From Gammaproteobacteria bacterium (GTDB lineage: Bacteria; Pseudomonadota; Gammaproteobacteria; Xanthomonadales; Wenzhouxiangellaceae), in NCBI GenBank assembly GCA_003565625.1, contig PXBD01000064.1, positions 1 through 40,050 of the forward strand: a stretch of 40,050 nucleotides of DNA. The letters are read 5' to 3'. The position numbers and the translations under genes are program-made. Positions 1-22,840 of the stretch are shown here, piece after piece (the first letter of the stretch is position 1; the number at the start of each line of letters is the position of its first letter). Under the pieces are notes generated by a model. The model saw only the letters and a list, made by a program, of their open reading frames with translations, had not been told where the DNA came from and searched no databases.

Positions 1-1
1 C

Positions 2-265
2 GTGTTGCCGCGACAGCTAAGCTTCAAACATACCCTCCGGGTTTGGGTGGCCTGGAGTCAACGGCAGTTCGTCTCTGATGCACCGGAAGACACAACAGGC
101 CTGCTCGGTCTGATCGCGCAGATCCGGGTTGGTAACAGACCTGGCCGAGTTGAGCCCCGGCATGTCAAGCGAAGACCGAAGCCTTTTCCACGGTTACAGA
201 CCACGCGAGAAAAAGCAGACGAAAACATAAAGATGTACGGTCGACCTCGAAGGGCTGCGGCTTAA
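2..265 (+). CDS. IS4-family transposase, C-terminal end (cut by window edge)
   Basis: The reading frame is open from the left edge and encodes 87 residues ending in TAA. It carries phrases typical of the end of IS4-type (DDE) transposases: a PRQLSFKHTLRVW segment near the start, then VGNRPGRVEPRHVKRRPKP in the middle, followed by a basic tail. The catalytic residues would lie upstream, outside the window, so whether the element is intact cannot be judged. The right end of the element probably lies in the 30 bases after the stop codon. No terminal repeat can be verified because the other end is not visible. The stop is only 33 bases upstream of the HigA-like gene, exactly where a higB toxin gene would be expected, so the insertion may have displaced it. 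Confidence 0.75.
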   Translation: MLPRQLSFKHTLRVWVAWSQRQFVSDAPEDTTGLLGLIAQIRVGNRPGRVEPRHVKRRPKPFPRLQTTREKADENIKMYGRPRRAAA

Positions 266-298
266 ATCAGTGCCATTCGATTATCATTGAGGTGCCCC

Positions 299-598: not shown

Positions 599-661
599 AC
601 ATAACAACCGGTTCAACTAGGACGCGGGCTTCGCCCGCGCCGGTCAACCAAAACGTTGGGC
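599..661 (+). other. attC site 1
   Basis: The R'' core is ACATAAC (599-605) and the R' core is GTTGGGC (655-661). The centre is a GC-rich hairpin, GCGGGC-TTC-GCCCGC, around 624-638, with imperfectly complementary L'' and L' arms (GGTTCAAC against GGTCAACC). The site is 63 bases long, within the short attC class. It follows the higA stop by 13 bases. Confidence 0.8.
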
Positions 662-676
662 TTCAAAGTTGTCGCG

Positions 677-712
677 TTGACAGGCTGTAGCCACAGGGCT
701 ACACTAAGTTTG
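677..712 (+). promoter_or_regulatory. Promoter and palindromic operator of the toxin-antitoxin cassette
   Basis: A consensus -35 TTGACA (677-682) is separated by 17 bases from a -10 TACACT (700-705). A perfect inverted repeat, TGTAGCC-ACAG-GGCTACA (686-703), fills the spacer and overlaps the -10, as expected for an autorepression operator bound by the antitoxin or toxin-antitoxin complex. Transcription should start at about 712, the GTG start codon of the toxin, which implies a leaderless mRNA. A cassette with its own promoter does not depend on the distant integron promoter. Confidence 0.7.
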
Positions 713-1002
713 TGGTGAGGGTACGGAAAACTGAGGTTTTTGCCAAGTGGCTGGACGGGCTGCGAGATGCTCGAGCCAAAGCCCGAATCCTTCTGCGGCT
801 CCGGCGGCTTTCTCTCCGGAACTTTGGCGACTGGAAGCCTGTTGGCGATAGTGTTTCTGAGCTGAGAATTGATTATGGTCCTGGCTACCGGGTTTACCTC
901 ACTCGCCGGGGAAATTCTGTAGTCATTCTTCTGGCTGGTGGCACCAAAAAATCTCAGAGTCGTGATATCAAACGGGCCATTGCATTGGCTCAGGAGTTGT
1001 AA
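712..1002 (+). CDS. HigB/Gp49-type toxin of a cassette-borne toxin-antitoxin pair
   Basis: This 96-residue protein belongs to the RelE/ParE-like Gp49 toxin group, the putative addiction module killer family seen with HI1419. The signature is the opening VRKTEVFAKWLDGLRD, then ARILLRLRRLSLRNFGDWKPVGDSVSELRIDYGPGYRVYLTR split along the fold, and a GGTKKSQSRDIKRA tail. Related toxins act as ribosome-dependent or free mRNA endonucleases. No ATG occurs near the start. GTG 712 sits exactly where the TTGACA/TACACT promoter should initiate, so a leaderless start is likely, with GTG 715 as the alternative. Toxin precedes antitoxin by six bases, the usual order for this family. The gene lies inside an integron cassette (656-1387), a common location where such pairs stabilise arrays. 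Confidence 0.88.
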   Translation: MVRVRKTEVFAKWLDGLRDARAKARILLRLRRLSLRNFGDWKPVGDSVSELRIDYGPGYRVYLTRRGNSVVILLAGGTKKSQSRDIKRAIALAQEL

Positions 1003-1008
1003 CCAACA

Positions 1009-1332
1009 ATGAGCAAGACTCGAACCTCTGAATTTGATGTAGCTGAGTATCTTCGCACGGACGAAGAAATAGAGGCCTATCTGGAGGCCTGTTTCGAGGA
1101 TCCTGAAGCAGATGCTGCCTTTATTGCCAAAGCACTTGGCGATATTGCCCGAGCCAAAGGCATGACCCAGGTTGCCCGAGATGCGGGCCTTTCCCGGGAA
1201 AGTTTGTATAAAGCTTTATCCGGTGAACGATCTCCTGAGTTCGACACAATCTTGAAGGTCACTCGAGCCCTGGGCATCCAGTTACATGCGGGCATCGCAG
1301 CCCAACAAAATGCTCAAGCGGACGTGGGGTAA
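1009..1332 (+). CDS. Antitoxin of the cassette-borne toxin-antitoxin pair (HI1420-type)
   Basis: This 107-residue XRE-type protein matches the 'addiction module antidote' family paired with HI1419-like toxins. It has an N-terminal segment DVAEYLRTDEEIEAYLEACFED, then FIAKALGDIARAKGMTQVA, and a helix-turn-helix AGLSRESLYKALSGERSPEFDTILKV across its two middle stretches. ATG 1009 has AGGAG at 992-996 at a long 12-base spacing, so translation probably also depends on coupling to the toxin stop codon at 1000-1002. The last eleven codons (from 1300) are written by the attC site itself, because the R'' core GCCCAAC lies in frame within the gene. That shows gene and recombination site have fused and explains the low-complexity AAQQNAQADVG ending. 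Confidence 0.88.
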   Translation: MSKTRTSEFDVAEYLRTDEEIEAYLEACFEDPEADAAFIAKALGDIARAKGMTQVARDAGLSRESLYKALSGERSPEFDTILKVTRALGIQLHAGIAAQQNAQADVG

Positions 1333-1393
1333 CTTCCGGGCCGGATAAGCCGGGCTGGGTCTGTGTCCGCGCCGCTTAGCATAGATGTTATAC
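1300..1393 (+). other. attC site 2
   Basis: R'' is GCCCAAC (1300-1306), the exact complement of the GTTGGGC that opens this cassette; R' is GTTATAC (1387-1393). The arms ATGCTCAAGCGG (1310-1321) and CCGCTTAGCAT (1373-1383) are complementary apart from one extra C on the left arm. That unpaired base is the kind of extrahelical base that sets strand choice in attC recombination. The site overlaps the 3' end of the antitoxin gene. Confidence 0.82.
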
Positions 1394-1408
1394 GCTCAAA
1401 AACACAGT

Positions 1409-2050
1409 ATGCATGTCGTATGTTTTGACATAGACGGGACGCTTGTACAGTCAGCGAGCTTCGACGGAGAGCTATACGAGGAGGCGATCCGGGCCGCTTT
1501 GGGAGTGGAGCTTCACACCGATATCTCTCGGTACAATAATGTGTCGGATAGTGGGATTCTCGCTGAGCTCCTTGGGGATTTTCCAGATACCGAGAGAGTT
1601 CGTTTGGCTCGAGAGGTCCGAATTGACTTTCTCAACCGCACCACGCGGTACGTCGCGGAGAATCCGCAACTGATACGGGAAGTGCCGGGGGCCGTCGCGT
1701 TAGTAGAGGTACTGCAAAACACGCCGATGATAGGGGTTTGCGTTGCGACAGGCGGCTGGGCTGAAACCGCTGCATTGAAACTCCGCTCTATCGGTCTCGA
1801 GCCCAGCAGCCTGGCTATTGCGACTAGCTCTGATGCTATGAGTCGTACCGAAATCATGCGTCTAGCGGAGTCACGAGTAACATACGGACCGGTGACGCGA
1901 CGAACATACTTCGGTGATGCGATCTGGGACAAAAGGGCTGCGGCAGAACTTGGCTACGATTTTATAGCGATTGGGGGCGGTGTGAGCCACCACGTGGCCT
2001 TTCCGGACCTTCGAGACGTTGAGGGTATTCTTAGGGAGTTGGGCGTATAA
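1409..2050 (+). CDS. HAD-superfamily hydrolase (cassette gene)
   Basis: A 213-residue protein with the haloacid dehalogenase fold. Motif I is FDIDGTL (nucleophile and acid Asp near the start), motif II is VATGG in the middle, and motif IV is YFGDAIWD near residue 165. An alpha-helical cap follows motif I, as in phosphoglycolate phosphatase-like members. Likely activity is phosphate monoester hydrolysis; the substrate cannot be told. ATG 1409 (MHVVCFDIDGTL) is chosen because homologues begin just before motif I. An in-frame ATG at 1385 would start inside the attC R' core. The stop codon TAA lies in the R'' core of the cassette's own attC. Codon use is clearly less GC-biased than in the core genes to the right, consistent with acquisition. 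Confidence 0.82.
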   Translation: MHVVCFDIDGTLVQSASFDGELYEEAIRAALGVELHTDISRYNNVSDSGILAELLGDFPDTERVRLAREVRIDFLNRTTRYVAENPQLIREVPGAVALVEVLQNTPMIGVCVATGGWAETAALKLRSIGLEPSSLAIATSSDAMSRTEIMRLAESRVTYGPVTRRTYFGDAIWDKRAAAELGYDFIAIGGGVSHHVAFPDLRDVEGILRELGV

Positions 2051-2131
2051 CAAATCGCTCAAGTTCGCTCCGGCCCTTCGGCCCTCCGCCGGACGCGGCT
2101 AACGCCGAGCCGCTTGGCTCAAACGTTATGT
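2045..2131 (+). other. attC site 3
   Basis: R'' is GTATAAC (2045-2051), the exact complement of the GTTATAC opening the HAD cassette; R' is GTTATGT (2125-2131). The left arm contains ATCGCTCAAG and the right arm CTTGGCTC, with an internal CCGGCC-CTTC-GGCC-like hairpin. The first 25 bases are nearly identical to those of attC 4, suggesting both come from the same species-level attC pool. Confidence 0.85.
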
Positions 2132-2162
2132 AACAACACTTTCAAACCCAAGGAGCATCATA

Positions 2163-2657
2163 ATGAAAAGAGAAAAAACCAGTGATACCGTCCAGCAGAT
2201 TCCACAGGAATGTATCGTTCGCATCCCTCCATGGGTATGGTTTCTGCTGTCACTTTTGGCCGGGCTAGGGCTGCATCGAATTGTGCCACTGGGGTTCATG
2301 CCACCAGAGGCAGGGTCAATATTTGGGTGGGTTATCGTTGGCTTGGGAATGGCCATTCTTGCATTGTCGGAGCGACAGTTCGCTCGTCACAGAACTTCTC
2401 ATGACAATCGAGGGATCACGTCCGCTCTTATCACTACAGGTCCGTTCCGGCTCTCAAGGAATCCTGTGTACCTTGGGCTCATGATAATGCTCGTCGGACT
2501 CGCGGTGACTTTCAACGTGCTGTGGCTTCTGATATCAATGCCATTGGCTTTTCTTGTCATTCAGTTTCATGTTGTGCCGAAGGAAGAGGCATGTCTACAA
2601 CAGCTGTTTCCCAACACCTATACGGGCTATCAGAGTTCGGTACGGCGCTGGCTATGA
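2163..2657 (+). CDS. Isoprenylcysteine carboxyl methyltransferase-like membrane protein (cassette gene)
   Basis: This 164-residue protein has about four hydrophobic segments and the C-terminal signature of the ICMT/PEMT-like family: TTGPFRLSRNPVYLGLMI for cofactor binding, then a VVPKEEACLQQLFP segment before the end. Bacterial members are mostly uncharacterised small membrane methyltransferases, so the substrate is unknown. ATG 2163 follows AGGAG (2151-2155) at seven bases. The gene begins 32 bases after the crossover point of attC 3 and stops 14 bases before attC 4, the tight packing of an integron cassette. Similar methyltransferase-like genes are familiar cargo in chromosomal cassette arrays (family knowledge). 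Confidence 0.82.
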   Translation: MKREKTSDTVQQIPQECIVRIPPWVWFLLSLLAGLGLHRIVPLGFMPPEAGSIFGWVIVGLGMAILALSERQFARHRTSHDNRGITSALITTGPFRLSRNPVYLGLMIMLVGLAVTFNVLWLLISMPLAFLVIQFHVVPKEEACLQQLFPNTYTGYQSSVRRWL

Positions 2658-2671
2658 AAGTCTGACTAATC

Positions 2672-2755
2672 GCATAACAAATCGCTCAAGTTCGTTCCGC
2701 GCTTCGCGCTCCACCGGACAGGGCGAACCTGCTCCGCGTGGTCCAAACGTCACGG
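2672..2755 (+). other. attC site 4, degenerate right core
   Basis: R'' is GCATAAC (2672-2678), matching the complement of the cassette's opening GTTATGT at six of seven bases. The left arm ATCGCTCAAGTTCG is shared with attC 3. The right end reads CCAAACGTCACGGGC, so where GTTRRRY is expected there is GTCACGG (from 2749). The bases after the crossover G belong to whatever flanks the array, so this end marks the array boundary or a decayed site. Confidence 0.65.
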
Positions 2756-3286
2756 GCTAGAACGAACTCGGCAATAGCCAGGTTTTCGGGACTGATAGGC
2801 AAAAGCTACCATGATTCGTTTCCGGCGAAGCATGACGCTTGTTCGTTGGCTAGTGGAGATTCCCGGCATGGGTGAAACGTGCTATCAGATTTGAATCCCG
2901 GCAGGGTCTCAAGATCGTGCTGGTCGCGTACGCCAAGTTCCGTTTCTTGGATTGACGGTTTGCCCGGATGGAAATCGTCGTGCAGGAACCGGTAGGTTAC
3001 CTGGCCCGGGTAGAAGATGTCGATCTCCGTCGACTGCAGTTCAGCGTCATCAATGTCGCCCTCGACCCGACGGGCGACGATGTCTGCCTCTTCAACCGCA
3101 AGCCCCAGGGTCTGCGGCAGCGCGGATGGCCCCGCGGCTGCCGCTGGGTGTGCGCAGGAACCGTTGCGGTAGGCGGATTTGCTACTGATGTCCAATCAAC
3201 TTGCCATGCCGCTGGCGGTTGATTTCGCCTGCCGTAGAATTCCTCAGGGCGCATACTGTAAGGCAGTAATCAAGGACGAATGATCC
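2756..3286. other. About 530 bases without an assignable gene
   Basis: No ORF here has a recognisable domain. The best coding-like stretch is a + frame from ATG 2968 to 3222 (84 residues). Over 3061-3120 its G/C content by codon position is about 75, 40 and 90 percent by hand count, which resembles real genes of this chromosome. That frame has an upstream stop at 2953 and a tail that looks random after about 3120. A minus-strand ORF at 2806-3195 looks like its shadow. It may be a decayed gene between the cassette array and the core chromosome. AAGGA at 3272-3276 is the ribosome site of the next gene. Confidence 0.3.
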
Positions 3287-4252
3287 ATGCGCGTATTTAC
3301 CAATCCGGTCGGCCCAGGCACGCTCTGGTTCGACAACCTGGCCACGGCCGACGGCACGCCGGTGGGCTACGATCCGCAGGCGCGAACCTTCGTTGCCTCG
3401 CCACCCTACTGCGCCAACCGCGAGGTCATCGGCTGCAACTGGATCGCGCCGGAGCCTGGTGCATTTTGCCGGTCTTGTGCGATGACGGCGCTGGCGCCGG
3501 ACCGCTCGATATTCAATGCCATGCCGAACTGGGCGCTGACCGAGGCGGCCAAACGCTGGGTGCTGGACAATCTGGGCCGCTGGAGTTGGTTCCGGCCGGA
3601 AGACCGCGGCACCCGCCCGGTTTTCCACATGCTCGCTGAAGGTCCGACCCCGGTGTCCATGGGGCATATCGAGGGCGTGGTGACGATCAGCGTGGCCGAG
3701 GCCGACGAGGTGGTCAGGACCACCCGGCGGCAAGCGCTGGACGAGCCCTACCGCACCATGATCGGCCACATGCGCCACGAAATAGCCCACATGCTGTGGT
3801 GGCGCCTGAGCCTGCGTGCCGATTTTCTCGAAGCATTTCGCGCCCTGTTCGGTGATGAACGGACCGACTATCAGGCGGCATTGCAACGCCACTACAATGA
3901 CGGCCCGCCGCCAAACTGGCGCGATCATTACCTGACCAGCTATGCCTCGGCCCATCCGCACGAAGACTGGGCCGAGACAGCGGCCAACCTGTTGCACCTG
4001 ACCGATATTGCCGACAGCTTTGCTGCTGCTGACCTGCACGCACCGGTCTTGCCTGAATCCGGCTGGGACGCCTACGCAGAAACGGATGCCGCACGGTTGA
4101 TTCACGTTTCCGCTACGCTGGCTATCGGTATCAATCATGTCAACCGCTCTATGGGGTTGTCGGATCTTTATCCATTCGTGGTCACTAGCGCGGCCTACCG
4201 CAAGCTGGCCTTCGTCCACGAGTGGTTGCGCCGAGGTGCACTGGGGAGGTAA
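3287..4252 (+). CDS. Putative zinc-dependent metallopeptidase with N-terminal zinc ribbon
   Basis: A 321-residue protein resembling the COG4307/zinc_peptidase family. Near the N-terminus C42, C50, C61 and C64 form a zinc-ribbon-like set. A gluzincin-type HEIAH motif is at residues 164-168, and HPHEDWAETAANLLH further on probably supplies the third metal ligand. No signal peptide is visible, so it is probably cytoplasmic. The family's substrate is unknown. ATG 3287 has AAGGA ten bases upstream. It heads a likely three-gene unit: the cytosine deaminase starts five bases after its stop with a strong ribosome site, and a SixA-type phosphatase follows. Confidence 0.82.
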   Translation: MRVFTNPVGPGTLWFDNLATADGTPVGYDPQARTFVASPPYCANREVIGCNWIAPEPGAFCRSCAMTALAPDRSIFNAMPNWALTEAAKRWVLDNLGRWSWFRPEDRGTRPVFHMLAEGPTPVSMGHIEGVVTISVAEADEVVRTTRRQALDEPYRTMIGHMRHEIAHMLWWRLSLRADFLEAFRALFGDERTDYQAALQRHYNDGPPPNWRDHYLTSYASAHPHEDWAETAANLLHLTDIADSFAAADLHAPVLPESGWDAYAETDAARLIHVSATLAIGINHVNRSMGLSDLYPFVVTSAAYRKLAFVHEWLRRGALGR

Positions 4253-10847: not shown

Positions 10848-13800
10848 GCGAGCGTTCTCCGGGCCTGGGTATTTCCGGGCGTATTGCGCGAGCGTTCCAG
10901 GACGCCCACGTCACCCCACTGCTGGCTTTTGTCGGTCTGCTGGCCGGGCTGATCGTCGTCATCATCACGCCCAAGGAGGAAGAGCCCCAGATCGACGTCA
11001 CCATGGCCGATGTCATCGTCGCCTTCCCCGGCGCCAGCGCCCTGCAGGTTGAAAACCTCATTGCAACGCCGGGCGAGCGCATCCTCGACGAAATCGAGGG
11101 CGTGGAATACATCTACTCGATGTCGACCCACGGTCGGGCCGTGATCACGGTGCAGTTTGAAGTCGGCATCCCGCGCCAGGAGGCGCTGCTGCGTCTGTAT
11201 AACCAGGTCTGGTCCAACCAGGACTGGTTCCCGGCGGATTTGGGTGCCGGCCCGCCGGTCGTCAAACCGCTGGGCATTGACGATGTCCCGATTCTCAGCC
11301 TGATCCTGTACGACCCGGTCGGGCGCCAGAGCAGCGAAGACCTGACCCGCCTGGCCCGGGCGCTGGAGGTCGAACTCAAGCGCGTTGCCGGCACCCGCGA
11401 TGTCTACACCATCGGGGCAGTCCCGGACCGGGTCGACATTCACTTCGACCCGGCCCTGCTGGCCGGGTACGGGCTGAGCGTGGCTGATCTGGGCGAGTCC
11501 ATCCGGGCGGCCAACGGCGGCGGCTCGGAAACGCGGATTACCCGCGATGGTGTCTCCATCCCGATCGAGCCGGGTACGCCGTTGACTGAAGTCGATGCCA
11601 TTGCTCGCCTGGTCGTGGGCATGCGCGACGGGGCCGCGGTGTACCTGGATGATGTCGCCAGCATCCGGCGCGGCGAGACCGTGCCAGATGCCCTGGTCCA
11701 GGTCGGTTTCGGCCCCGGCGCACAAGCCCATCACGGGCAGGCGTTCCCTGCCGTCACCGTGGCCATCGCCAAAAAGCCTGGTGAAAACGCGGTGGTGATT
11801 GCCGATGCCATCCAGGAACGGGTCGAGATGTTGCGCGGCCGGGTCATTCCGGACGACACGGGTGTTCTGGTCACGCGCGACTACGGCAAGACCGCCGGCG
11901 AAAAGTCGCGCAAGCTGATTACCGACCTGGTCATGGCCACGCTGTCGGTGGTGTTGCTGGTGCTGGCGGCCATGGGCTGGCGCCAGGCGCTCATCGTCGG
12001 GCTGTCGGTCATCGTCACCCTGCTGTTGACCCTGGTGTTTTCCTGGGCCTGGGGCTTCACCCTGAACCGGGTTTCGCTGTTTGCGCTGATTTTTTCGATC
12101 GGCATCCTGGTCGACGATGCCATCGTCATCGTCGAAAACATCAGCCGACGGCTGCGGGTCAGCGGGCGGGGCCTGCGCGAAGTCATCCCGGCCGCCGTCG
12201 ACGAGGTCGGCACGCCAACCATCATGGCAACCCTGACCGTGACGGCGGCGCTGCTGCCCATGGCGTTTGTTACCGGGCTGATGGGGCCGTACATGAGCCC
12301 GATTCCGATCAATGCCTCGGCCGGGATGGTGATCTCGCAAATCGTTGCCTTTGCCCTGGCGCCGTGGCTGGCGGTGCGCCTGCTGCGCCACGAGAAAGGC
12401 CAGGATCGCGGCAGCGACGGCGGTGGCGGCAGTTCGGCGGCGCGCGGGGTCAACGTGCACGTCCAGCGGCTGTTTCGCCGCCTGCTCAGCCCGTTTCTCG
12501 GCGACCATGCCTGGCGCCGGCGCGGCCTGGCCGCGGGGGTGGTCGGCCTGACCCTGCTGGCGGCTTCTTTGCCGGTGTTCATGGCCGTTATCCTCAAGAT
12601 GCTGCCATTTGACGACAAATCGGAGCTTCAGGTTGTCATCGACATGCCCGAGCACACGCCCGTGGAGCAGACCCTGCGCGTGCTCACCGAGATGGGGTAT
12701 CTCCTGGAAGGGGTCGACGAGGTGTCGGATTGGCAGGCCTATGCCGGCACGGCTGCGCCGATCAATTTCAACGGTCTGGTGCGCCAGTACTACCTGCGTT
12801 CCGAGCCCTGGCAGGGGGATCTGCAGATCAACCTGGTCGATGATCGCGACCGCCAGTCGCACGACATCGCCCTGGATCTGCGCGCCCCGCTGACCGAAAT
12901 TGGACAACGACACGGTGCGGCGGTCAAGATCGTCGAAGTGCCGCCGGGACCGCCGGTGCTCTCCCCGGTGGTGGCCGAGGTCTACGGGCCCGACCACGAA
13001 ACCCGTACCCGGCTGGCCCTGGAGCTGGCCGAGCGCATGCACGACATCGACGGCCTGGTCGATATCGACACCACGGTCACGGCGCCGACCGAACGCTGGC
13101 AGGTGGTGGTGGACCGCGACCGGGCGGCTCGCCTGGGGGTTCACCAGGCCCAGGTTGTTGAACTGCTCGAAACCGCGCTGGGCAACCGCAGCGTAAGCTA
13201 CCTGCACGACCCGTACGCCAAGCATGCCGTGCCGATCCGGGGGATTCTGGAAGAAGGCTTGAAAGCCCAGTTGCCGGCGCTGAAATCGCTGAGCGTGCGC
13301 AACCACGACGGCGAACTCATCCGGTTGGCGGAAATCGTGCGCTTCGAACCATCCGACTGGCCGGGCGTGATTCATCACAAGAACCTGCTGCCGGTGACCT
13401 ACGTGACTGCCGACATGGCCGGCGCCGTGGATTCACCCCTGTACGGCATGTTCCGGCTGGCCGCCGAGCTGCGCGACGACCCCGATGGTCCCGACCAGTA
13501 TTACATTCGCCAGCCCGACTGGCCTGATCAGCCGGCGCTGAAATGGGACGGTGAATGGCAGATCACCTATGAGACCTTCCGCGACATGGGCATTGCCTAC
13601 GCCGTTGGCGTCTTCGCAATTTTCCTGCTGCTGGTTGCCCAGTTCCGGGCCTACGGCATGCCGCTGATCGTCATGGCGCCGATCGCCCTGACCCTGATCG
13701 GCATCATGCCCGGCCATGCCCTTCTCGGCAAGGAGTTTACTGCCACCAGCATGATCGGCATGATTGCCCTGGCGGGCATCATCGTGCGCAACTCCATTTT

Positions 13801-14714: not shown

Positions 14715-16220
14715 TCAACGACCGGTCATGGCCTCGGCCGGCACCAACCGGCATGAGTCCAGCGTGCGTCCGTCGATTTCGGCACGAGCACCATCGCCCG
14801 AGGTTTCAAAGAGCAGATCCATTTCCTCGAAGCGCTCGCCGTTGCCGCTCTCGACCCGGTCGAGAACATGGACGAACTGATCCCAGTGCAAGGCGGCGTG
14901 AGCCGGGCCGATCCGCACCGTCAGCGAATCACCGCCGCAGTCATATTCGCGCTGTTCCACGGTAATCGCCCGCCCGGCGTGCAGGTAGGGGGTAAAAGAC
15001 GCCAGGGTGCCCTCATGGTCGGCGGGCTCGAGTTCAAGCAGGTGGGTCATGAGCGCGTACAGATCGACCGCCCGAACCGCGGGGCTGCGACTGCCGGCGG
15101 CAAATGCGGGGCCATGGGCAACGAAGCCACCGTGCATTTCGTGCAGGGCCGGATCCCAGCCGTGCATGCCATACAGGGAAAACTGGCGCCGACCGGCCAT
15201 GTGGGGACGGTTCGAAATCATCCACTCCAGGTCGGCTTCGGCCACCACGTCGGGCACGCGGTGGTGGCTGCCGAACCGGTAGCGGGCCGGCACATCCTCA
15301 CGCGCCCAGACCCGCATGTGCGGATGGGCACCGTCGAGTGCCTCCACGATTTCTTCGGCTGGCATGTCGGTGGCCCAGATCTGGGCCGCCGGCCCCCAGT
15401 CCGAGACCCGCACCTTGCCCAGATCCAGGTATTCATCCAGCATGATGTAGCGGTCGAAGTCGACCCAGCTCATGCCGTGATCGGAGACCACGATGATGTG
15501 CATGTTGTCAAACAGGTCACGCTCTTGAAGCTCGTCGAACAGGATTTCCAGATGCTCATCGATGTCGATCAGCGCATCCCGCACCGGCTCGGCCCTCGGC
15601 CCGTGGCGATGGCCCATCGAATCGACCGCGCTGAAATACAGGGTCAGCAGCGTCGGCCGCTCGGCAGCCGGTTTGTCCAGCCACTCGAGGATAGTGTCTA
15701 CCCGCTCGCGATGCGGCACATCGTTGGAGTAGGGTTTCCAGTAGCTGGGGCGTACGCCGTGAATCCGGGCCTCCGAGCCTGGCCAGAAAAAAGTGCCGGC
15801 CCGCAGGCCCTGGTTTTCTGCGGTAACCCAGATCGGCTCACCACCGGAGTACCAATAGCCGTCGCCGACCGCGTCGCGATCGCGCAGCGAAAAGCGCGCG
15901 TCGCGGGGCGGGTCCCACATGCTGTTGGCGACGACCCCGTGGGTGCCGGGGTACCGTCCGGTGACCAGCGTGTAATGGGTTGGAAAGGTCTTGGTCGGGA
16001 AACCATGCAGCAGGCTGTCGGCCTTGAGGCCACCGTCAACCAGGCGGTTCAGAGCCGGGATCTCCGCCAGATCCCAGTAGTCGTGGCGGAAGCCGTCGAT
16101 GGAAATCAGCAGCAGCGGCGGTGGCCGGTCTTCGGCGGGGACAGATGGTGTGCCCTGGCAACCACTCAGGGTCAGCAGGCCAATCGAAAGCAGCAGCAGG
16201 AGGAGCGGAACTCGGAGCAT
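14715..16220 (-). CDS. NPP-type phosphodiesterase/nucleotide pyrophosphatase lipoprotein
   Basis: A 501-residue member of the alkaline phosphatase superfamily, ectonucleotide pyrophosphatase/phosphodiesterase branch. A lipoprotein signal ends at lipobox LSGC (Cys 21). Metal and nucleophile sites are visible: ISIDGFRHDYW (Asp 42), PTKTFPTHYTLVTG (nucleophile Thr 78), YFSAVDSMGHRHGP, VVSDHGM and a late GMHGWDPALHEMHG. It probably hydrolyses nucleotide or phospholipid-like phosphodiesters on the periplasmic or outer-membrane side. A C-terminal extension of about 90 residues with two Cys (YDCGG, LDSCRL) may form a disulfide. A perfect TATAAT lies on the minus strand at 16250-16255, 30 bases before ATG 16220, without a clear -35. 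It converges with the barrel gene, the stops being 10 bases apart. Confidence 0.88.
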   Translation of the reverse strand: MLRVPLLLLLLSIGLLTLSGCQGTPSVPAEDRPPPLLLISIDGFRHDYWDLAEIPALNRLVDGGLKADSLLHGFPTKTFPTHYTLVTGRYPGTHGVVANSMWDPPRDARFSLRDRDAVGDGYWYSGGEPIWVTAENQGLRAGTFFWPGSEARIHGVRPSYWKPYSNDVPHRERVDTILEWLDKPAAERPTLLTLYFSAVDSMGHRHGPRAEPVRDALIDIDEHLEILFDELQERDLFDNMHIIVVSDHGMSWVDFDRYIMLDEYLDLGKVRVSDWGPAAQIWATDMPAEEIVEALDGAHPHMRVWAREDVPARYRFGSHHRVPDVVAEADLEWMISNRPHMAGRRQFSLYGMHGWDPALHEMHGGFVAHGPAFAAGSRSPAVRAVDLYALMTHLLELEPADHEGTLASFTPYLHAGRAITVEQREYDCGGDSLTVRIGPAHAALHWDQFVHVLDRVESGNGERFEEMDLLFETSGDGARAEIDGRTLDSCRLVPAEAMTGR

Positions 16221-16249
16221 GGCAGGACGTGAGCGGGCGATGATGCTGA

Positions 16250-16255
16250 ATTATA
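16250..16255 (-). promoter_or_regulatory. Possible -10 element for the phosphodiesterase gene
   Basis: TATAAT on the minus strand, 29 bases upstream of ATG 16220. No convincing -35 is seen 16-18 bases further upstream, so this is a weak call. Confidence 0.35.
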
Positions 16256-16382
16256 GTCGGCGCCGGCCGCCGTGGCGGTGACCGATTCGTGAATCCACCG
16301 GACATCCATTCCATCAGGAGTGGCGGGTTGGATCAATGGATTCCGTAATAAGCTGAGAGTGAAATTGAGGAGTACAGGTCTG

Positions 16383-17000
16383 ATGCCCAAGTTTTTGCTG
16401 GGTTGTTTGGTAGTGCTGGCCGTGCTGGCTGTGGGTGGTGGAACGGCCGGGTATTTCATGGTCATCAAGCCGGCCTACGAATTTGCCACCGACGTGGGCG
16501 GTTTCGCGACCGAGTTTGCCGAGCTCAACGAGCAGATTCAGCGCCAGCCTCGCTATCAGCCCCCGGCCGACGGGGCGGTCAGCGACGATCAGTTCGAGCG
16601 TTTTCTGGCGGCGCAGCGCGACATCCGAATCGGCATGGCCGGCCGTTTGACCGAGCTGAAGGAAAAATGGGAAGAGATGCAGGCCGAGATCGACCAGGCC
16701 GATCGCGATGCCAACATCGTTGAGTTGGTGACCGCCTACCGGGATCTGGGTGAATTGATCCTCGACGCCAAGCGCAACCAGGTGCAGGCCCTGAATGCGC
16801 ACGATTTCTCGCTCCAGGAATATCTCTACGTGCGCAACCAGACCTTCCGCGCGCTGGGTGAGGATGTGGCCGTGGCGAGCTTTGGAGACCAGGGCGGTCC
16901 GCAGCGGGTTCGCCAGGTGCCCGACGAGGTCCTCGAGATGGTCCGCCCGCACCGTGAGGAGTTGATGGAAGGCTACGCCCTGGCCTGGTTCGGCATGTAA
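16383..17000 (+). CDS. Membrane-anchored protein of unknown function
   Basis: This 205-residue protein is not one I recognise. The N-terminus MPKFLLGCLVVLAVLAVGGGTAGYF is a signal anchor or uncleaved signal. The rest is hydrophilic and largely helical, with heptad-like stretches (ELNEQIQRQ; AGRLTELKEKWEEMQAEIDQ), so it probably forms a periplasmic coiled-coil. ATG 16383 is preceded by GAGGAG (16367-16372) ten bases away. A GTG at 16320 would add 21 residues before the hydrophobic segment and is less convincing. It lies 69 bases upstream of the AsmA gene on the same strand and may share its envelope role. Confidence 0.6.
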   Translation: MPKFLLGCLVVLAVLAVGGGTAGYFMVIKPAYEFATDVGGFATEFAELNEQIQRQPRYQPPADGAVSDDQFERFLAAQRDIRIGMAGRLTELKEKWEEMQAEIDQADRDANIVELVTAYRDLGELILDAKRNQVQALNAHDFSLQEYLYVRNQTFRALGEDVAVASFGDQGGPQRVRQVPDEVLEMVRPHREELMEGYALAWFGM

Positions 17001-17069
17001 GCGGGAACACCTTCGGCACCTTGCGCGCCGTCGGCGGTCGAATGGTTTTTATTCCGGAGGCCCCGACTG

Positions 17070-19076
17070 GTGCGCAACGTTCTGATTTTCGCCGGCTTGG
17101 TTCTGGCGCTGGCGGCAGCGCTGGCGGCGGCCCTGTTTTTGCTGGTCGACCCCGACGACTATCGCGAAGAAATCGCTCAGCGCGTCAGCGCTACTCTGGG
17201 CCGCGAGGTGCAGCTGCAGGGCCCCTTGCGCCTGCGGCTTTTTCCCGCGCTTGCGTTGGACCTGAGCGACGTGGTGGTCGGCAATCCGCCCGGTTTTCCG
17301 GAAGCGCCCGACCTGGCCCGCGTGGGCACCGCCTCGGCCTCGGTGGCGCTGTGGCCGCTGATCCGCGGCAACCTGGAAGTCGGAACCGTGACTTTGCGCG
17401 ATGCAAGCCTGGCGCTGGTCACCAGCGCGGACGGGGTCCATAACCTTGACGGCCTGCTGGCCGATCCTGACGAGCCATCGGCCAGGGAGGCAGCGCCGGA
17501 TCTGGCGCGCGTGTCGCTGGCCGGTCTGCGCTTTGAAAACGTCTCGCTGCACGTGTCCGACCTGGGTTCCGAGCACCGCCTGCAGATCCGGATCGACTCA
17601 CTCCAGATGGACGCGTTTCGACCGGATATTCCCATCCCGCTGCGCTTTCGCGCCAGCCTCGGGAACGGGCACCAGGACTGGCTGCGCGACTTCAGCTTCG
17701 AGGGCACGCTGGACATCGCCGCCGACCTCGGCCGGGTCCGGCTCGATGGCTGGCGGGCCGAGTTCGAGCTGCCGCTTGCCGCCGCCCGTGGCGAGGCCCA
17801 AGGCAGTCTGGAGGTGGACTTGTCCGCCGCTCCACCGACCCTGCGGTTCAGCGCGCTGTCCAGCGCGTTGCACACCGACCAGCAGTCCCTGAGCTTCGAG
17901 CTGGGCCAGCCGATGGCGCTGCGCCTGGGCGAGGCGCTGGCCGGGCAGATCGATGCCGCCGAGTTGGGCCTCAATGGTCAGCCGCTGTCGATTTCCGGCG
18001 ACTTCGCCCTGGCGGATTCGCCACGGGCCAGCCTGGCCGTTGCCGGATCGGTGCTGGATTTGCGCCCGTTCCTGGCAGCCGATGGTGACATCCGCGCCGG
18101 CCAGCTATCGGACGCTTCGCCGGAGATGGATTTTTCCGCCCTGGTCGGCCCGGTCTTGCGGCTGAGCCTCGATCTGGATCGGGTCATTGTCGACGAGAAC
18201 CTGGTGCTTACCGAGGTGGCCGCCCGCGCCGGTCTCGAGGGTGGGGTTCTGACCCTGGCTCCGCTGAACGCAAGGCTCCTCGGCGGGGCCTTTGCCGGTG
18301 AGGTCGAGACCGATTTCACCGTTGTCCCGCCGCGGACCCGGATCGCACCGCGCCTGACCGGCGTCCAGACCAGCGAACTCGTTGGGCTGCTCAGTCCGGC
18401 CGCGCCGCTGCGCGGTCTGGGCGAGCTGGAGCTGGATTTCCAGTTCAGCGGCCTGGGCCGGGAAGCCATCCTGGCCAGCCTCGACGGCAGCGGCCGTTTT
18501 GCTCTGGACGAAGGGGCGCTGCTGGGGGTGGATCTGAACCGCTTGATCGAGGAAAAGCTGACCGTCAGCACGCTGTCCAGCGTCCAGGAGGTATTTTCCG
18601 GCGAGACGCCGTTTCGCAGTTTGTCCGGTTCGATCCAGGCCGAGAATGGAGTTTTTTCCCTGCCCGACCTGCAGCTGCAAGCAGAGCGCTTTGTTGCCTC
18701 CGGTCGCGGTGAGCTGGACCTTGCTGCCGGCCAGCTGGCTTACCGCCTCTACCTGCAACTGGGTGAGGCGCTCATCGAGCGTCTCCCGCGCCAGCTGGCC
18801 CGGGCAACGCAGGGGCTGATTCCGCTGACGATCGCCGGGCCGCTGCATCGGCCCGTGGTCCGGGTGGATCTGGTGGGTATCGCTGAAGGTGCGTTGCAGC
18901 GCGAACTCCAGGACCGCCTGTTCGAGCGTCACCGCCCGGCCAACGACGATGCCGAAGACGCCGATGCGGACGATGGGCAGGAACAGCGCCGAGCCCGAAC
19001 CAGCGATCTACTCCTGCAGGGCTTGCGCGATCGGCGCGAACGCGAGCCCCCGCCGGATGATCCTTCCGATCCCTGA
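17070..19076 (+). CDS. AsmA-family protein
   Basis: A 668-residue AsmA-like protein: an N-terminal membrane anchor (VLIFAGLVLALAAALAAALF), then the family signature DPDDYREEIAQRVSATLGREV and LQGPLRLRLFPALALDLSDV. The long beta-rich middle ends in the AsmA C-terminal part (GSGRFALDEGALLGVDLNRL; FRSLSGSIQAENGVFSLPDL). AsmA-like proteins are inner-membrane anchored with long periplasmic beta-structures, related to lipid-transfer bridge proteins such as TamB and YhdP; the exact role here is inferred. The tail after about 625 is charged and low-complexity (NDDAEDADADDGQEQ). GTG 17070 has GGAGG at 17056-17060, nine bases upstream. The stop is five bases from the stop of the convergent DUF418 gene. 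Confidence 0.88.
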   Translation: MRNVLIFAGLVLALAAALAAALFLLVDPDDYREEIAQRVSATLGREVQLQGPLRLRLFPALALDLSDVVVGNPPGFPEAPDLARVGTASASVALWPLIRGNLEVGTVTLRDASLALVTSADGVHNLDGLLADPDEPSAREAAPDLARVSLAGLRFENVSLHVSDLGSEHRLQIRIDSLQMDAFRPDIPIPLRFRASLGNGHQDWLRDFSFEGTLDIAADLGRVRLDGWRAEFELPLAAARGEAQGSLEVDLSAAPPTLRFSALSSALHTDQQSLSFELGQPMALRLGEALAGQIDAAELGLNGQPLSISGDFALADSPRASLAVAGSVLDLRPFLAADGDIRAGQLSDASPEMDFSALVGPVLRLSLDLDRVIVDENLVLTEVAARAGLEGGVLTLAPLNARLLGGAFAGEVETDFTVVPPRTRIAPRLTGVQTSELVGLLSPAAPLRGLGELELDFQFSGLGREAILASLDGSGRFALDEGALLGVDLNRLIEEKLTVSTLSSVQEVFSGETPFRSLSGSIQAENGVFSLPDLQLQAERFVASGRGELDLAAGQLAYRLYLQLGEALIERLPRQLARATQGLIPLTIAGPLHRPVVRVDLVGIAEGALQRELQDRLFERHRPANDDAEDADADDGQEQRRARTSDLLLQGLRDRREREPPPDDPSDP

Positions 19077-19080
19077 TGGC

Positions 19081-20343
19081 TCACTGGCGTTCGATTTGGC
19101 GACGCATGGGCTGGCGCTGCAGGTAGGTCAGGCTGCGCCACAACCATTCGGCCGGTCCAAAGCGAAAGTGGTGAAGCCAGAAATGGCTGAACATGACCTG
19201 CACGGCAAAGAACAGCAGTACGGCCAGCGGATGCCAGGCGCGCGGCAGCTGTCCCCACAGTCCAAGGCCGTGTCCATAGAAGGTCCAGGTCCAGAAAAGG
19301 GACTGGCACAGGTAGTTGGTCAGCGCCATCTGGCCGGCCGGAGCCAGAAACCGCAGGCGCTCCGCGCCCAGCGTGACCAGCGACAGGTAGGCCAGGCTCA
19401 GCAACAGCGCCCCGATCGTGGCGGCGGTCATGCCCAGGGCTACCTGGGGTGCGGGAATGCTCCAGTTGGCTCCGTAGAGCAAGCTGGCGCCGATCAAGGC
19501 CAACGGCAATCCGAGGATCAGCCCGCGCGAACGCCAGCGTCGGAAAAACAGGCGGTGTTGCTGGGGCCGAAGCAGCCGGTCGGTGGCAATCAACCAGCGC
19601 CCGATCAGGAAATAGCCGAGGACCGGCGGCACCCAGAAGGCAAAGTTGGCCAGCGTGAAGCGGGCATCTTCCAGGCGCTGGCCGACGTTGGCAATCCAGC
19701 TTCCGGTGGCGTGGGTCTCGGCGGCGGCGAGCACGCGACCGTGCAGCGCGCTGGCATCGGCCTCGAACCCGGCCATGATGTCTGCCTGCAGGTCCGGGTC
19801 ACCCTGGGTGCTCCAGATCGCCAGCGTCCCCATCCACATCAACAGCATGGGCGTGGCAATGAAAGCCAGACCCCATTTCCACAGGCGTTGGATGGGGGTG
19901 CGACGAAACAGCAGCACCATCACGAAGGCGCTGAGGGCGTAGACCACGAGGATATCGCCGGCCCAGACCAGCAGCATGTGCGCGGCCCCGAAGACCAGCA
20001 AAATCAGCAGGCGACGCAGGTACAGCAACCAGAACGGGGCCTGCCGCGCCTCGGCCCGCTCCAGCATGAGCGCAAAGCCGGCGCCAAAGAGCATGGAAAA
20101 CAGTGGGTAGAACTTGCCTTCGGCCAGGGCCCGGATCAGCCAGTCAGTTCCGGCATCAAGGCCGCTCAGTCCCGGCTCGACGCCCAGGACAATGGCCTGG
20201 ATCGGTCGCGTGAACCACTCGAAGTTGACCAGCAGGATGCCGAGCAGGGCAAAGCTGCGCAATACATCGAAATGTTCCAGGCGTTGCTGGGTGGGCGCGA
20301 GCCGGTTTGAGTCCACTCTCTTGCGGCTTCCGGATATCAACAT
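19081..20343 (-). CDS. DUF418 (YeiB-like) membrane protein
   Basis: A 420-residue polytopic membrane protein with about nine or ten hydrophobic segments. Family marks are the opening RLEHFDVLRSFALLGILLVNF, FSMLFGAGFALMLERAE, the long FWVPPVLGYFLIGRWL region, and the C-terminal DUF418 segment (LTNYLCQSLFWTWTFYGHGL to a late WLHHFRFGPAEWLWRSLTY). Function is unknown; distant similarity to acyltransferase-3 topology is often noted. ATG 20343 is used; a TATGAT on the minus strand 12 bases before it suggests a very short leader. It diverges from the chorismatase gene across 77 bases. Confidence 0.88.
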   Translation of the reverse strand: MLISGSRKRVDSNRLAPTQQRLEHFDVLRSFALLGILLVNFEWFTRPIQAIVLGVEPGLSGLDAGTDWLIRALAEGKFYPLFSMLFGAGFALMLERAEARQAPFWLLYLRRLLILLVFGAAHMLLVWAGDILVVYALSAFVMVLLFRRTPIQRLWKWGLAFIATPMLLMWMGTLAIWSTQGDPDLQADIMAGFEADASALHGRVLAAAETHATGSWIANVGQRLEDARFTLANFAFWVPPVLGYFLIGRWLIATDRLLRPQQHRLFFRRWRSRGLILGLPLALIGASLLYGANWSIPAPQVALGMTAATIGALLLSLAYLSLVTLGAERLRFLAPAGQMALTNYLCQSLFWTWTFYGHGLGLWGQLPRAWHPLAVLLFFAVQVMFSHFWLHHFRFGPAEWLWRSLTYLQRQPMRRQIERQ

Positions 20344-20408
20344 TCGGTTCGCTCAATCATAGCGGAAGCGGCCGTGCGCGGTTGCGGCCTTCTTGGCATG
20401 GGTCGGGG

Positions 20409-20423
20409 TAGAATGACGATATG
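20409..20423 (+). promoter_or_regulatory. -10 element placing a leaderless start
   Basis: TAGAAT (20409-20414) is followed by GACGAT and then ATG 20421, the same layout as at 9804-9818. There is no ribosome site and no clear -35, so the mRNA probably begins at the start codon. Confidence 0.5.
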
Positions 20424-21401
20424 CCCCAAGCATCTCAGCCCTTGCCTGATCCCGAAGGCCACCACGTCCTGAAACTGGCGGCTTCAGGCAGTGTCCAGCA
20501 ATCATTGGCGAACTTCGTTTTCGGTGCCGCCAGCGCGGTCTGGCCGACCACCGGTATTGGTCTGGAGTGGCTGGGCGGGGATCTGCGCTGCGAGCAGTGG
20601 GTGGCAGATTCGCCGGTGCGGTTTGGTCACGGTGAGCGCTGGCACTGGTCGCGCAACGATGATCTGTTGATGGTGGCCATGCAGGCCGAAGACTTCGGCG
20701 ATCCGGCAGAGACCACGGCGCGCTTTTACCGTGAGTTGATCGCAACGGTGCGCTCGGCCGGGTACCCGCACTTGCTGCGAATCTGGAATTACCTGCCCGA
20801 CATCAACGGCGGCAGCGGGGACAACGAGCGCTACCGGCGATTCTGCATCGGCCGTGGGCAGGCCCTGGCCGAAGCGGGGCTGGAAGACCAGCGCATGTGT
20901 GCCGCTACCGCCATCGGCACGCTGGATGACCGGTTTCGGCTGTTTGCCCTGGCGGGCCGCTCACCGGGTCAGTCGGTCGAAAATCCGCGTCAGGTCAGCT
21001 CCTGGGACTACCCGCCAGCCTACGGTCCGCGCAGCCCGGCCTTTGCTCGTGCCACCGGCATGACCCTGCCGGATGGCCGGGTGGCGCTTCTGGTATCCGG
21101 AACCGCCAGCGTGGTCGGTCATGCCACCGCACACCCCGGTGATGTGCTGGCCCAGACCGACGAGGCGGTCAGCAATCTGGCGGCCTTGCTGCAAGAGGCT
21201 GCCGACGACCTTGAGCGCGCCGGTCTCGCCAGCTTTGGGTCCGAGTCGGCGGCGCGCGTGTATGTTCGCCATGCCGAGCACTGGCCTGTGGTGTATGAGC
21301 GCTTGCGCGAGCACTGGCCCGGCCTGCCGCTGGCCGGGTTCCATGGTGATATCTGCCGGCGTGATCTGCTGATGGAGATCGAAGCCTGGCACTGTGCCTG
21401 A
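20421..21401 (+). CDS. Chorismatase of the FkbO/Hyg5/XanB2 family
   Basis: A 326-residue protein with the conserved blocks of chorismate-converting hydrolases: AGYPHLLRIWNYLPDINGG, NERYRRFCIGRGQAL, an AATAIGT block, ENPRQVSSWDYPPAYGPRSP followed by AFARATGM, and a late GFHGDICRRDLLMEIE. FkbO and Hyg5 split chorismate to dihydroxycyclohexadiene carboxylate or 3-hydroxybenzoate. XanB2 of Xanthomonas gives 3- and 4-hydroxybenzoate for the xanthomonadin pigment and ubiquinone. Which product forms here cannot be read with certainty. No aryl polyene genes lie nearby, so a ubiquinone or signal role is possible. The mRNA appears leaderless. The creatininase-family gene follows after 15 bases and is likely co-transcribed. 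Confidence 0.85.
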   Translation: MPQASQPLPDPEGHHVLKLAASGSVQQSLANFVFGAASAVWPTTGIGLEWLGGDLRCEQWVADSPVRFGHGERWHWSRNDDLLMVAMQAEDFGDPAETTARFYRELIATVRSAGYPHLLRIWNYLPDINGGSGDNERYRRFCIGRGQALAEAGLEDQRMCAATAIGTLDDRFRLFALAGRSPGQSVENPRQVSSWDYPPAYGPRSPAFARATGMTLPDGRVALLVSGTASVVGHATAHPGDVLAQTDEAVSNLAALLQEAADDLERAGLASFGSESAARVYVRHAEHWPVVYERLREHWPGLPLAGFHGDICRRDLLMEIEAWHCA

Positions 21402-21416
21402 TGATGGAGTGACAAC

Positions 21417-22139
21417 GTGAAACTGCAATTGGCCACCTGGCCCGAAATCGAAACCTACCTGGAACGCTCCCGCAGCATCATCGTGCCGATCGGTTCTACC
21501 GAGCAGCACGGGCCTACCGGCATGATCGGCACCGATGCGCTGTGTCCGGAAATCGTGGCCGACGGCATGGCCGAAGAAAAAGAACTGCTGATCGGCCCTA
21601 CGCTGAGCATTGGCATGGCCCAGCATCACCTCGCGTTTCCCGGCTCGGTCAGCCTCAGGCCCAGCACCCTGATCCGGGTCGTCTCGGACGTGGTGGAATC
21701 GCTGGCCGGTCACGGGTTCGAGCATTTTTTCTTTCTCAACGGCCACGGCGGCAACATCGCCACGGTGCAGGCGGCGTTTTCCGAGATCTGGGCCTCGGCC
21801 AGCTTCGCCGGCCGCGACAGCGGCCTGCGTCTGCAGTTGCACAATTGGTTTCAGGGCCCGCGCGTGGTCCGACTGTCGCGCGAGCTGTATGGCGACGGCG
21901 ACGGCAGCCACGCCACGCCGTCAGAGATTTCGCTGGTGCTGTCGGGCTATCCGCAGGCTGAGCGTGATGTTGCCCTGGAGCCGAAAATGCCGCCCAGCGG
22001 CTCGATCCGCGATGCGCGCGATTTCCGCCGCCAGCACCCCGACGGGCGCATGGGCGCACGCTCCGACCTGGCCACCGCCGAACACGGCCGGCGCCTGCGC
22101 GATGCGGCCGTGGCAGATGCGCTCGAGGTTTTCGGGTAA
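21417..22139 (+). CDS. Creatininase-family amidohydrolase
   Basis: A 240-residue protein of the creatininase/MftE/ArfB family. Metal ligands are visible in IVPIGSTEQHGPTGMIGTD (Glu, His, Asp), the FFLNGHGGN block (His), and a later GDGSHATPSEISLVL (Glu). A TLSIGMAQHHLAFPGSVSLRP segment is typical. Family members hydrolyse cyclic or linear amides (creatinine, formamidopyrimidines, mycofactocin precursor peptide); the substrate is unknown. GTG 21417 has GGAG (21406-21409) seven bases upstream. It follows the chorismatase by 15 bases and ends 43 bases from the end of the convergent his operon, with a shared hairpin between. Confidence 0.87.
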   Translation: MKLQLATWPEIETYLERSRSIIVPIGSTEQHGPTGMIGTDALCPEIVADGMAEEKELLIGPTLSIGMAQHHLAFPGSVSLRPSTLIRVVSDVVESLAGHGFEHFFFLNGHGGNIATVQAAFSEIWASASFAGRDSGLRLQLHNWFQGPRVVRLSRELYGDGDGSHATPSEISLVLSGYPQAERDVALEPKMPPSGSIRDARDFRRQHPDGRMGARSDLATAEHGRRLRDAAVADALEVFG

Positions 22140-22147
22140 CCAATCAA

Positions 22148-22173
22148 GGGGGCGGCAGCACCTGCCCCGCCCC
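22148..22173. terminator. Hairpin between convergent genes, probable bidirectional terminator
   Basis: GGGGGCGGCAG (22148-22158) pairs with CTGCCCCGCCCC (22162-22173) with one bulge and a three-base loop. No long T-tract follows on either side, so Rho may assist. It separates the creatininase gene from hisIE. Confidence 0.5.
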
Positions 22174-22182
22174 TGCGCGCCT

Positions 22183-22803
22183 TTATCCTCGCCGCCGCTG
22201 CAGTTCCGCCACAACTTCGTCCAGTGAACTCCCGGCCGCGGTCAGGCAGACCAGCAGATGGTAGAGCAGATCGGCCGCTTCCTCGTTGAGCTTGTTGCCG
22301 GTGACCGCAGCCAGCGCGGTTTCCACGCCCTCTTCGCCGACTTTCTGCGCGCACCTTGCCAGGTCACCTTGCAGGAGGCGGGTGGTATAGCTTTTCTCCG
22401 GATCGCCGTCGCGGCGCGATTCGATCAGTGCCTGCAGGCGCGGCAGCAGGCCCACCGGCGGCCAGGCAGTATCGCCGAAGCAGGTAGCGCTGCCGAGGTG
22501 ACAGGTCGGTCCGCGCGGGATGGCCTGGACCAGCAGCGTGTCGTGGTCGCAGTCGCCGGCCACATCGACCAATTCAAGCACGTTGCCCGAGGTTTCGCCC
22601 TTGGTCCACAGGCGTTTCTTGCTGCGCGAGAAAAACGTTACCTTGCGCTCAGTCAGGGTCTGCTCCAGGGCCTCGGCATTCATGTAGCCGAGCATCAGGA
22701 CGCGCCCGTCGCGCGCGTCCTGGATCACCGCCGGCAACAGCCCGTCGCCCTTGCTCCAGTCCAGACGTTTTACTTCTTCGGCAGTCAACATGCTTTTATC
22801 CAT
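22183..22803 (-). CDS. hisI: Bifunctional phosphoribosyl-AMP cyclohydrolase / phosphoribosyl-ATP pyrophosphohydrolase
   Basis: A 206-residue HisIE fusion catalysing steps two and three of histidine synthesis. The N-terminal HisI half shows LMLGYMNAEALEQTL, FFSRSKKRLWTKGETSGN and the zinc/magnesium site DCDHDTLLVQ with GPTCHLG. The C-terminal HisE half (from about residue 118) shows SYTTRLLQG, KVGEEGVETALAA and NEEAADLLYHLLV. The length matches enterobacterial and xanthomonad HisIE. It is the last gene of the operon, 37 bases after hisF; that gap carries a ten-base tandem repeat. ATG 22803 is used; ATG 22791 is possible. Confidence 0.95.
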   Translation of the reverse strand: MDKSMLTAEEVKRLDWSKGDGLLPAVIQDARDGRVLMLGYMNAEALEQTLTERKVTFFSRSKKRLWTKGETSGNVLELVDVAGDCDHDTLLVQAIPRGPTCHLGSATCFGDTAWPPVGLLPRLQALIESRRDGDPEKSYTTRLLQGDLARCAQKVGEEGVETALAAVTGNKLNEEAADLLYHLLVCLTAAGSSLDEVVAELQRRRG

Positions 22804-22810
22804 TTTTACC

Positions 22811-22830
22811 TGCGTCCATCTGCGTCCATC
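22811..22830. repeat. Tandem ten-base repeat in the hisF-hisI gap
   Basis: TGCGTCCATC occurs twice in direct succession (22811-22820, 22821-22830) in the only sizeable gap near the end of the his operon, flanked by CCGCGG. Similar 'GGATGGACGCAGATGGACGC' phrases are familiar from intergenic regions of unrelated bacteria (recollection, not searched). Confidence 0.6.
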
Positions 22831-22840
22831 CGCGGTGAAG

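Follow-up and report, generated by a model that had tools for sequence, protein, structure and literature searches.

Gene Cassettes with attC Sites at the Left End of a Wenzhouxiangellaceae Contig: Probable Distal End of a Chromosomal Integron Split in Assembly

Introduction

The left end of contig PXBD01000064.1 (Gammaproteobacteria bacterium, Wenzhouxiangellaceae, assembly GCA_003565625.1) carries a row of gene cassettes separated by attC recombination sites, and the question is whether this row stands alone or is a fragment of a larger integron. The contig (C5; 40,050 bases) was analysed in its entire length, called here the window. The assembly has 2.8 Mb in 95 contigs, and the array touches the left edge of the window. 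A sequence-only reading had proposed an integrase-less array at 599..2755 and left two possibilities: the array could be a cluster of attC sites lacking an integron integrase (CALIN), or it could belong to the distal portion of a chromosomal integron. The latter is much better supported, and an independent CALIN is probably not present. With a probability of about 0.93, the first 2.9 kb represent the distal end of a sedentary chromosomal integron that has lost a functional integrase and was split in the assembly. The observation itself is real, well supported, and ordinary in kind.

attC Sites of the Window

Own attC covariance models were built because Rfam gave no match within the window at gathering scores. 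The R''/R' and L''/L' structure was set by hand, as free prediction in RNAalifold on six sites returned no R'' or L'' pairs. Model R1 was trained on these six sites (window sites 1, 3, and 4, plus three from contig C19, which belongs to this genome as well). Model R3 was trained on 50 sites from ten loci (nine genomes) of relatives, without any sequence of this genome. The alignment used to train R3 was, however, made with model R2, which had included the sites of this genome. In the genome-wide scans, the best 150 first-look candidates were scored, out of 2,095 for R1 and 4,193 for R3.

Both R1 and R3 found all four attC sites exactly where the array had been proposed (Table 1). Site 2, which was absent from R1 training, was recovered by R1 at 36.2 bits. 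Genome-wide expectation values (E) of the window sites in R3 were between 4.6e-18 (site 3) and 7.3e-5 (site 1), with 1.5e-5 for site 4. Over the 2.8-Mb genome, R3 recognized seven attC sites. Four of them belong to the window and three to C19, all close to the left end of their contig, and there was no eighth match at E ≤ 1 among the 150 candidates scored. The R1 scan gave seven sites at E ≤ 2.3e-5, followed by a weak match on contig C23 (19.8 bits, E 0.54) that was not recovered by R3. The next-best R3 match in the window and C19 has only 15.7 bits (window 12704-12779), and all four sites are thus well above the next match of either model. R''/R' cores, which the sequence-only reading had described for the sites in general, are present at sites 1-3, but site 4 has GTCACGG where GTTRRRY is expected, i.e., a degenerate R'. 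Site 2 was first aligned at 1327-1393, and its start was moved to 1300 by the covariance model.

In the 50-site alignment, which had been fitted to the structure tested, 57 cells were changed on both sides of a pair, compared with 28.9 in shuffled alignments, and none of 500 shuffles was as high. The structure of attC sites, their bottom strand, and the extrahelical G are treated in parts of PMC2727003, and taxon-specific attC models in parts of PMC8352920.

Cassette Boundaries

Excision of a cassette as a circle brings together the two half-sites of one cassette, and the expected trace is that the opening seven bases of a cassette are the reverse complement of its own R'' core. In the window, the openings and own R'' cores are GTTGGGC/GCCCAAC and GTTATAC/GTATAAC, both exact, and GTTATGT/GCATAAC, with 6/7 bases. 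This count agrees with what had been reported, but the claim that chance is very unlikely could be upheld only in a larger set, as the chance for the three window cassettes alone is about 0.012 (openings drawn from the 32 seen). That set comprised 32 cassettes from seven arrays or parts of arrays (window, C19, G018, G026, G027, G002, and G017). The rule was exact in 28 of them and at most one base off in 31, compared with a mean of 3.9 exact matches when R'' partners were shuffled; 28 was reached in none of 10,000 shuffles. Within single sites, R'' and R' match exactly in only 1/36. The opening rule is a signature readable from sequence only and can aid the delimitation of cassettes where no model is available.

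Broken Integrase and Proximal Array on Contig C19

No integrase had been seen beside the array, and contig C5 indeed lacks intI, but a truncated intI is present on C19 of the same genome. Both intI and an attI-like junction were identified there near hemL, together with attC sites like those of the window. Contig C19 (10,521 bases) holds hemL, the intI frame, the attI-like junction, and three cassettes, and its base 1 lies inside an attC. By eye, the attI-like junction is about 250 bp from intI, and a similar junction is found upstream of intI in relatives. The C19 attC sites are on the strand opposite to intI. The opening of the first cassette, GTTATGC, is the reverse complement of its own R'' core GCATAAC (by eye).

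The intI frame (L010:1962-2789) scored 267.1 bits with TIGR02249 (cut-off 265) and covers profile positions 1-222 of 315, without the C-terminal 30% of the profile. In comparison with nine full-length relatives, it has YGSGLG where 9/9 have YGSGLR, a change of the box-I Arg to Gly. Similarity to the relatives is lost at about residue 225, ahead of their RHSFATHLLE and IYTH stretches. The nearest PDB chain, that of IntI 2a3v, aligns to residues 4-224 of the 275 residues, and no PDB match was found beyond residue 224. Residues of the missing C-terminal stretches and the box-I Arg are catalytic. Because the C-terminus is missing and the box-I Arg is now Gly, the integrase of this genome can probably no longer catalyse recombination. 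An ArsP-type permease gene and a thioredoxin-like gene are located between hemL and intI (L010 2860-4327), and their arrival may have removed the 3' end of intI.

Other tyrosine recombinases found in the genome were all below the IntI cut-off. One of the recombinases, on contig C45, gave 42 bits with PF00589, and the R1 match at that contig end has 15.3 bits (E 0.2).

Position of the Array in the Genus

An intI gene near hemL was found in 10/10 relatives of the genus whose loci were read (G001, G002, G005, G007, G017, G018, G019, G024, G026, and G027; G013 also has intI, and its surroundings were left out). The distance is about 0.3 kb or less in eight of them, whereas G024 and G002 have wider spacings of about 1.8 and 4 kb. 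No hemL match was found at 12 intI loci outside the genus within 1.5 kb or less on each side. An IntI above the curated cut-off is encoded in 12/30 genomes of the genus (own genome included), and at least one attC at E ≤ 0.001 is present in 20/30, with up to 38 in G027. Many of these assemblies are drafts, and absences mean little.

To place contig C5, the distal array end and its flank, 19.9 kb in all, were compared (matches of at least 45% identity, E ≤ 1e-15). All three single-contig genomes of the genus (G018, G026, and G027) have homologues of window genes past the distal end of the hemL-intI array, and for this reason the window is placed at the distal flank of the hemL integron. G026 and G027 have homologues of two genes at window 14.7-17.0 kb, and G018 of those at 14.7-24.0 kb in collinear order. 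Such a flank speaks against a stand-alone CALIN at a locus of its own, whether it arose through off-site insertion or as the remnant of an older integron. So does the confinement of the R3 sites, among the 150 candidates scored, to the two array-bearing contig ends of the genome. The absence of intI on contig C5 would agree with a CALIN, as would the attC sites that some relatives have as scattered sites or clusters away from the main array, for example at 1.69, 1.91, and 3.38 Mb on C1 of G018; on balance, a stand-alone CALIN is very unlikely. CALINs are defined in PMC9024848, where, in the part drawn on here, they are said to be overestimated in draft assemblies. Contig C5 resembles the CALIN of IntegronFinder described there in having at least two attC sites and no intI, but it differs in that intI and attI are found near another contig end of the same genome.

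G017 has like parts, with hemL-intI near one contig end (L057) and an array on C15 that reaches the contig end. Its C15 also carries a 69% relative of the HAD-family gene and the metallopeptidase gene.

Several observations weigh against the reading of the locus as one chromosomal integron. C19 and C5 are not bridged by any contig, and the join rests on synteny and on like attC sites. In the single-contig relatives, 7-16 kb separate the last attC from the first homologue of a window gene, two of the three match only two window genes at 52-61% identity, and none has a close relative of the metallopeptidase (G026 has one of 40%). In G017, the HAD gene and the metallopeptidase are separated by about 8.8 kb with crcB and further unrelated genes, and attC sites are present also on a further contig, C30. 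Covariation in the six-site alignment is weak, with 3 pairs changed on both sides compared with 2.1 in shuffled alignments and a score equalled by 5/500 shuffles. As lone DNA strands, 3/4 window sites and 4/7 sites overall do not fold clearly better than shuffles (z of -2.62, -0.89, -0.96, and -1.17 for the window sites and -3.50, -0.61, and -2.35 for the C19 sites); the support for attC is comparative and does not come from single-strand energies. Another integrase might also still act in trans.

For the split integron, the proposed order would begin with hemL, the arsP-like permease, the thioredoxin-like gene, the truncated intI, attI, the HicA cassette, the cassette of the 124-amino-acid (aa) protein, and the reversed ParDE-like cassette. 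The gap between the contigs would have to contain, at a minimum, what is missing of an IS4-type element and of higB. The distal part would then run through HigA, HI1419/HI1420, HAD, the PEMT-like gene, and the decayed reversed RelE cassette into the chromosome. The integron is probably split in the assembly because the IS4-type element recurs. Contigs of two genomes (L067 and L010) end at a GTTA junction of a cassette or of attI, suggesting that assemblies break where such sites resemble one another. What looks like an integrase-less attC cluster in a draft assembly can thus be one end of a complete chromosomal integron whose parts were assembled separately.

Cassettes in Related Genomes

Relatives of the HAD gene at E ≤ 1e-20 are present in 9/43 genomes of the family (own genome included). 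In G012, the relative has attC on both sides and directly follows a HigA-like gene (57%), and in G019 attC is on its 3' side. Downstream of the G017 HAD gene, no attC was found with filters off (best 4.7 bits). A GTATAAC core resembling the one in window site 3 lies after this gene (L070 11812-12570, minus strand), and the site is perhaps a decayed attC. At 12 Photobacterium loci (L076-L087) with HAD relatives of 34-39%, no attC was found by R2 at E ≤ 0.1. The HI1419/HI1420 pair adjoins intI in G033, which belongs to the family but not to the genus. In G005, the pair forms a cassette, and in G027 its first frame is broken. The window HigA is 86% identical over 93 aa to the product of a G026 cassette, and the ParD/ParE-like cassette of C19 has copies of 88-96% in arrays of G018 (L061) and G017 (L126), with 96 and 92% for the pair in G018.

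For the PEMT-like gene, 9/250 genomes of the order (own genome included) gave matches at E ≤ 1e-20. None of the others is a member of the genus, and identities outside this genome are 33-39%. A weaker PEMT-like relative of 36% was seen in G026 (L119 5845-6285, minus strand), chromosomal and some 13 kb past the end of the array. PADLOC gave only weak partial matches for two of six proteins.

The HAD and HI1419/HI1420 cassettes are thus found beside attC sites in relatives in other orders, and a fixed gene order without recombination sites was not seen. The row might instead be taken for toxin-antitoxin and accessory genes of an ordinary genomic island, separated by palindromes that arose by chance. 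The folding of three window sites would conform to this, as would several genes of kinds common in islands. Such a reading is already refuted by the R3 scores, with no background match at E ≤ 1 among the 150 candidates scored, and by the 28/32 exact own-core matches, and the differing orders of the two cassettes in relatives also speak against it.

All genes had been described as facing one way. The five window genes with family matches are on the plus strand, but the RelE relic at the far end is on the minus strand, and one C19 cassette is reversed.

Left Edge and Far End of the Array

The window begins with the right end of an insertion sequence (IS), 92% identical to a sequence on C82 of G022. 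A stretch of 124 bases at the end of contig C89, also of this genome, matches it at 95%. The IS matches run out at about 278-283, and at least two right ends of it are present in this genome. The G022 relative (162 aa, cut by the contig end) is above the cut-off of DDE_Tnp_1 (PF01609), and with the IS4 model NF033592 it has 57.6 bits, below the cut-off of 115. In the relation of its transposase C-terminus to DDE transposases, the element resembles the IS4 family, but it differs in that the window covers no more than its right 278 bases, with the left end not seen, and in the IS4 model score below cut-off. Judged by eye against the intact higBA cassette of G026, the IS4-type element cuts higB three codons before the stop; therefore, HigA is without its toxin gene on this side. 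The remainder of higB was not seen in the assembly and would lie beyond the IS.

At the far end, window 2663-2820 is 77% identical to C19 780-622, which is the start of the reversed ParDE-like cassette with its attC. No attC of its own was found for the RelE relic. The sequence shared with the chromosomal flank of G004 starts at 2894.

Table 1. Features of the window (contig C5) and cassettes of contig C19
Feature	Position	Strand	Evidence and remarks
Right end of IS4-type insertion sequence	1-278	+	C-terminal transposase frame 2-265; cut by contig edge
higB, last three codons and stop	279-290	+	By eye against intact higBA cassette of G026 (L063), same end residues
HigA antitoxin	open reading frame (ORF) 287-586, likely start 299	+	TIGR02607, 114.5 bits (cut-off 47.7)
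attC site 1	599-661	+	R'' ACATAAC, R' GTTGGGC; R3 34.2 bits; 88% to attC of C19 HicA cassette
HI1419-type RelE/ParE-family toxin	712-1002	+	TIGR02683, 128.6 bits
HI1420-type antidote	1009-1332	+	TIGR02684, 128.9 bits; PF21716
attC site 2	1300-1393	+	R'' GCCCAAC, R' GTTATAC; R3 63.2 bits; overlaps 3' end of HI1420 antidote gene
HAD-family hydrolase	ORF 1385-2050, likely start 1409	+	PF00702, 33.0 bits
attC site 3	2045-2131	+	R'' GTATAAC, R' GTTATGT; R3 82.5 bits, E 4.6e-18
PEMT/ICMT-like membrane methyltransferase-type gene	2163-2657	+	PF04191, 44.4 bits
attC site 4	2672-2755	+	R'' GCATAAC, R' degenerate; R3 36.7 bits; last found in array
Reversed ParE/RelE cassette relic	2753-2878	-	tblastn 40-42% over 55 aa to C19 toxin
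Chromosomal flank	2894-3122	+	90% to G004 C79
Zinc metallopeptidase gene	3287-4252	+	PF15887; 88-90% in G017, G012, G014
Distal-flank synteny genes	14715-23821		Phosphodiesterase, unnamed gene, AsmA, chorismatase-like, creatininase, hisI, hisA
C19 first cassette		reading away from intI	HicA (PF07927) and partner gene without family match
C19 second cassette			Unnamed 124-aa protein
C19 third cassette	L010 139-692	reversed relative to array	ParD/ParE-like; TIGR02574; ParE weak, below cut-off

History of the Locus and Comparison with Known Integrons

In the past, an active IntI would have captured cassettes through recombination between the folded bottom strand of attC and either attI or another attC, as known from the integron family. 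With an integrase that is probably inactive, the array is likely to be frozen and in decay, as judged from the IS-cut higB, the broken R' of the last attC, and the reduction of a toxin-antitoxin cassette to a relic. Toxin-antitoxin cassettes may slow the loss of the array.

Full-length and broken integrases share one locus within the genus. The odds are about even that the hemL integron is ancestral to the whole genus and that its life stages can be compared, from G027, with 38 attC sites and a full-length intI, to this genome, where the doubly broken intI, the IS-cut higB, the decayed terminal attC, and the relic cassette would represent the end stage. If true, the series of stages suits asking whether toxin-antitoxin cassettes hold the array after the death of the integrase.

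The sedentary chromosomal integrons of Xanthomonas, as far as described in the portion of PMC12444791 used here, are alike in occupying one chromosomal site across the genus and in the frequent inactivation of intI, through deletions or point changes. They differ in the neighbour gene, with intI downstream of ilvD there and hemL as the proximal neighbour here. The same portion of that paper reports that intI at ilvD is often truncated or inactivated and that the arrays are more stable afterwards. No paper joining integron, hemL, and attC was found in the literature search.

In the chromosomal flank of the window, a chorismatase FkbO/Hyg5-like gene adjoins a creatininase-family gene beside hisI and hisA (20421-22139), and this arrangement is collinear in G018.

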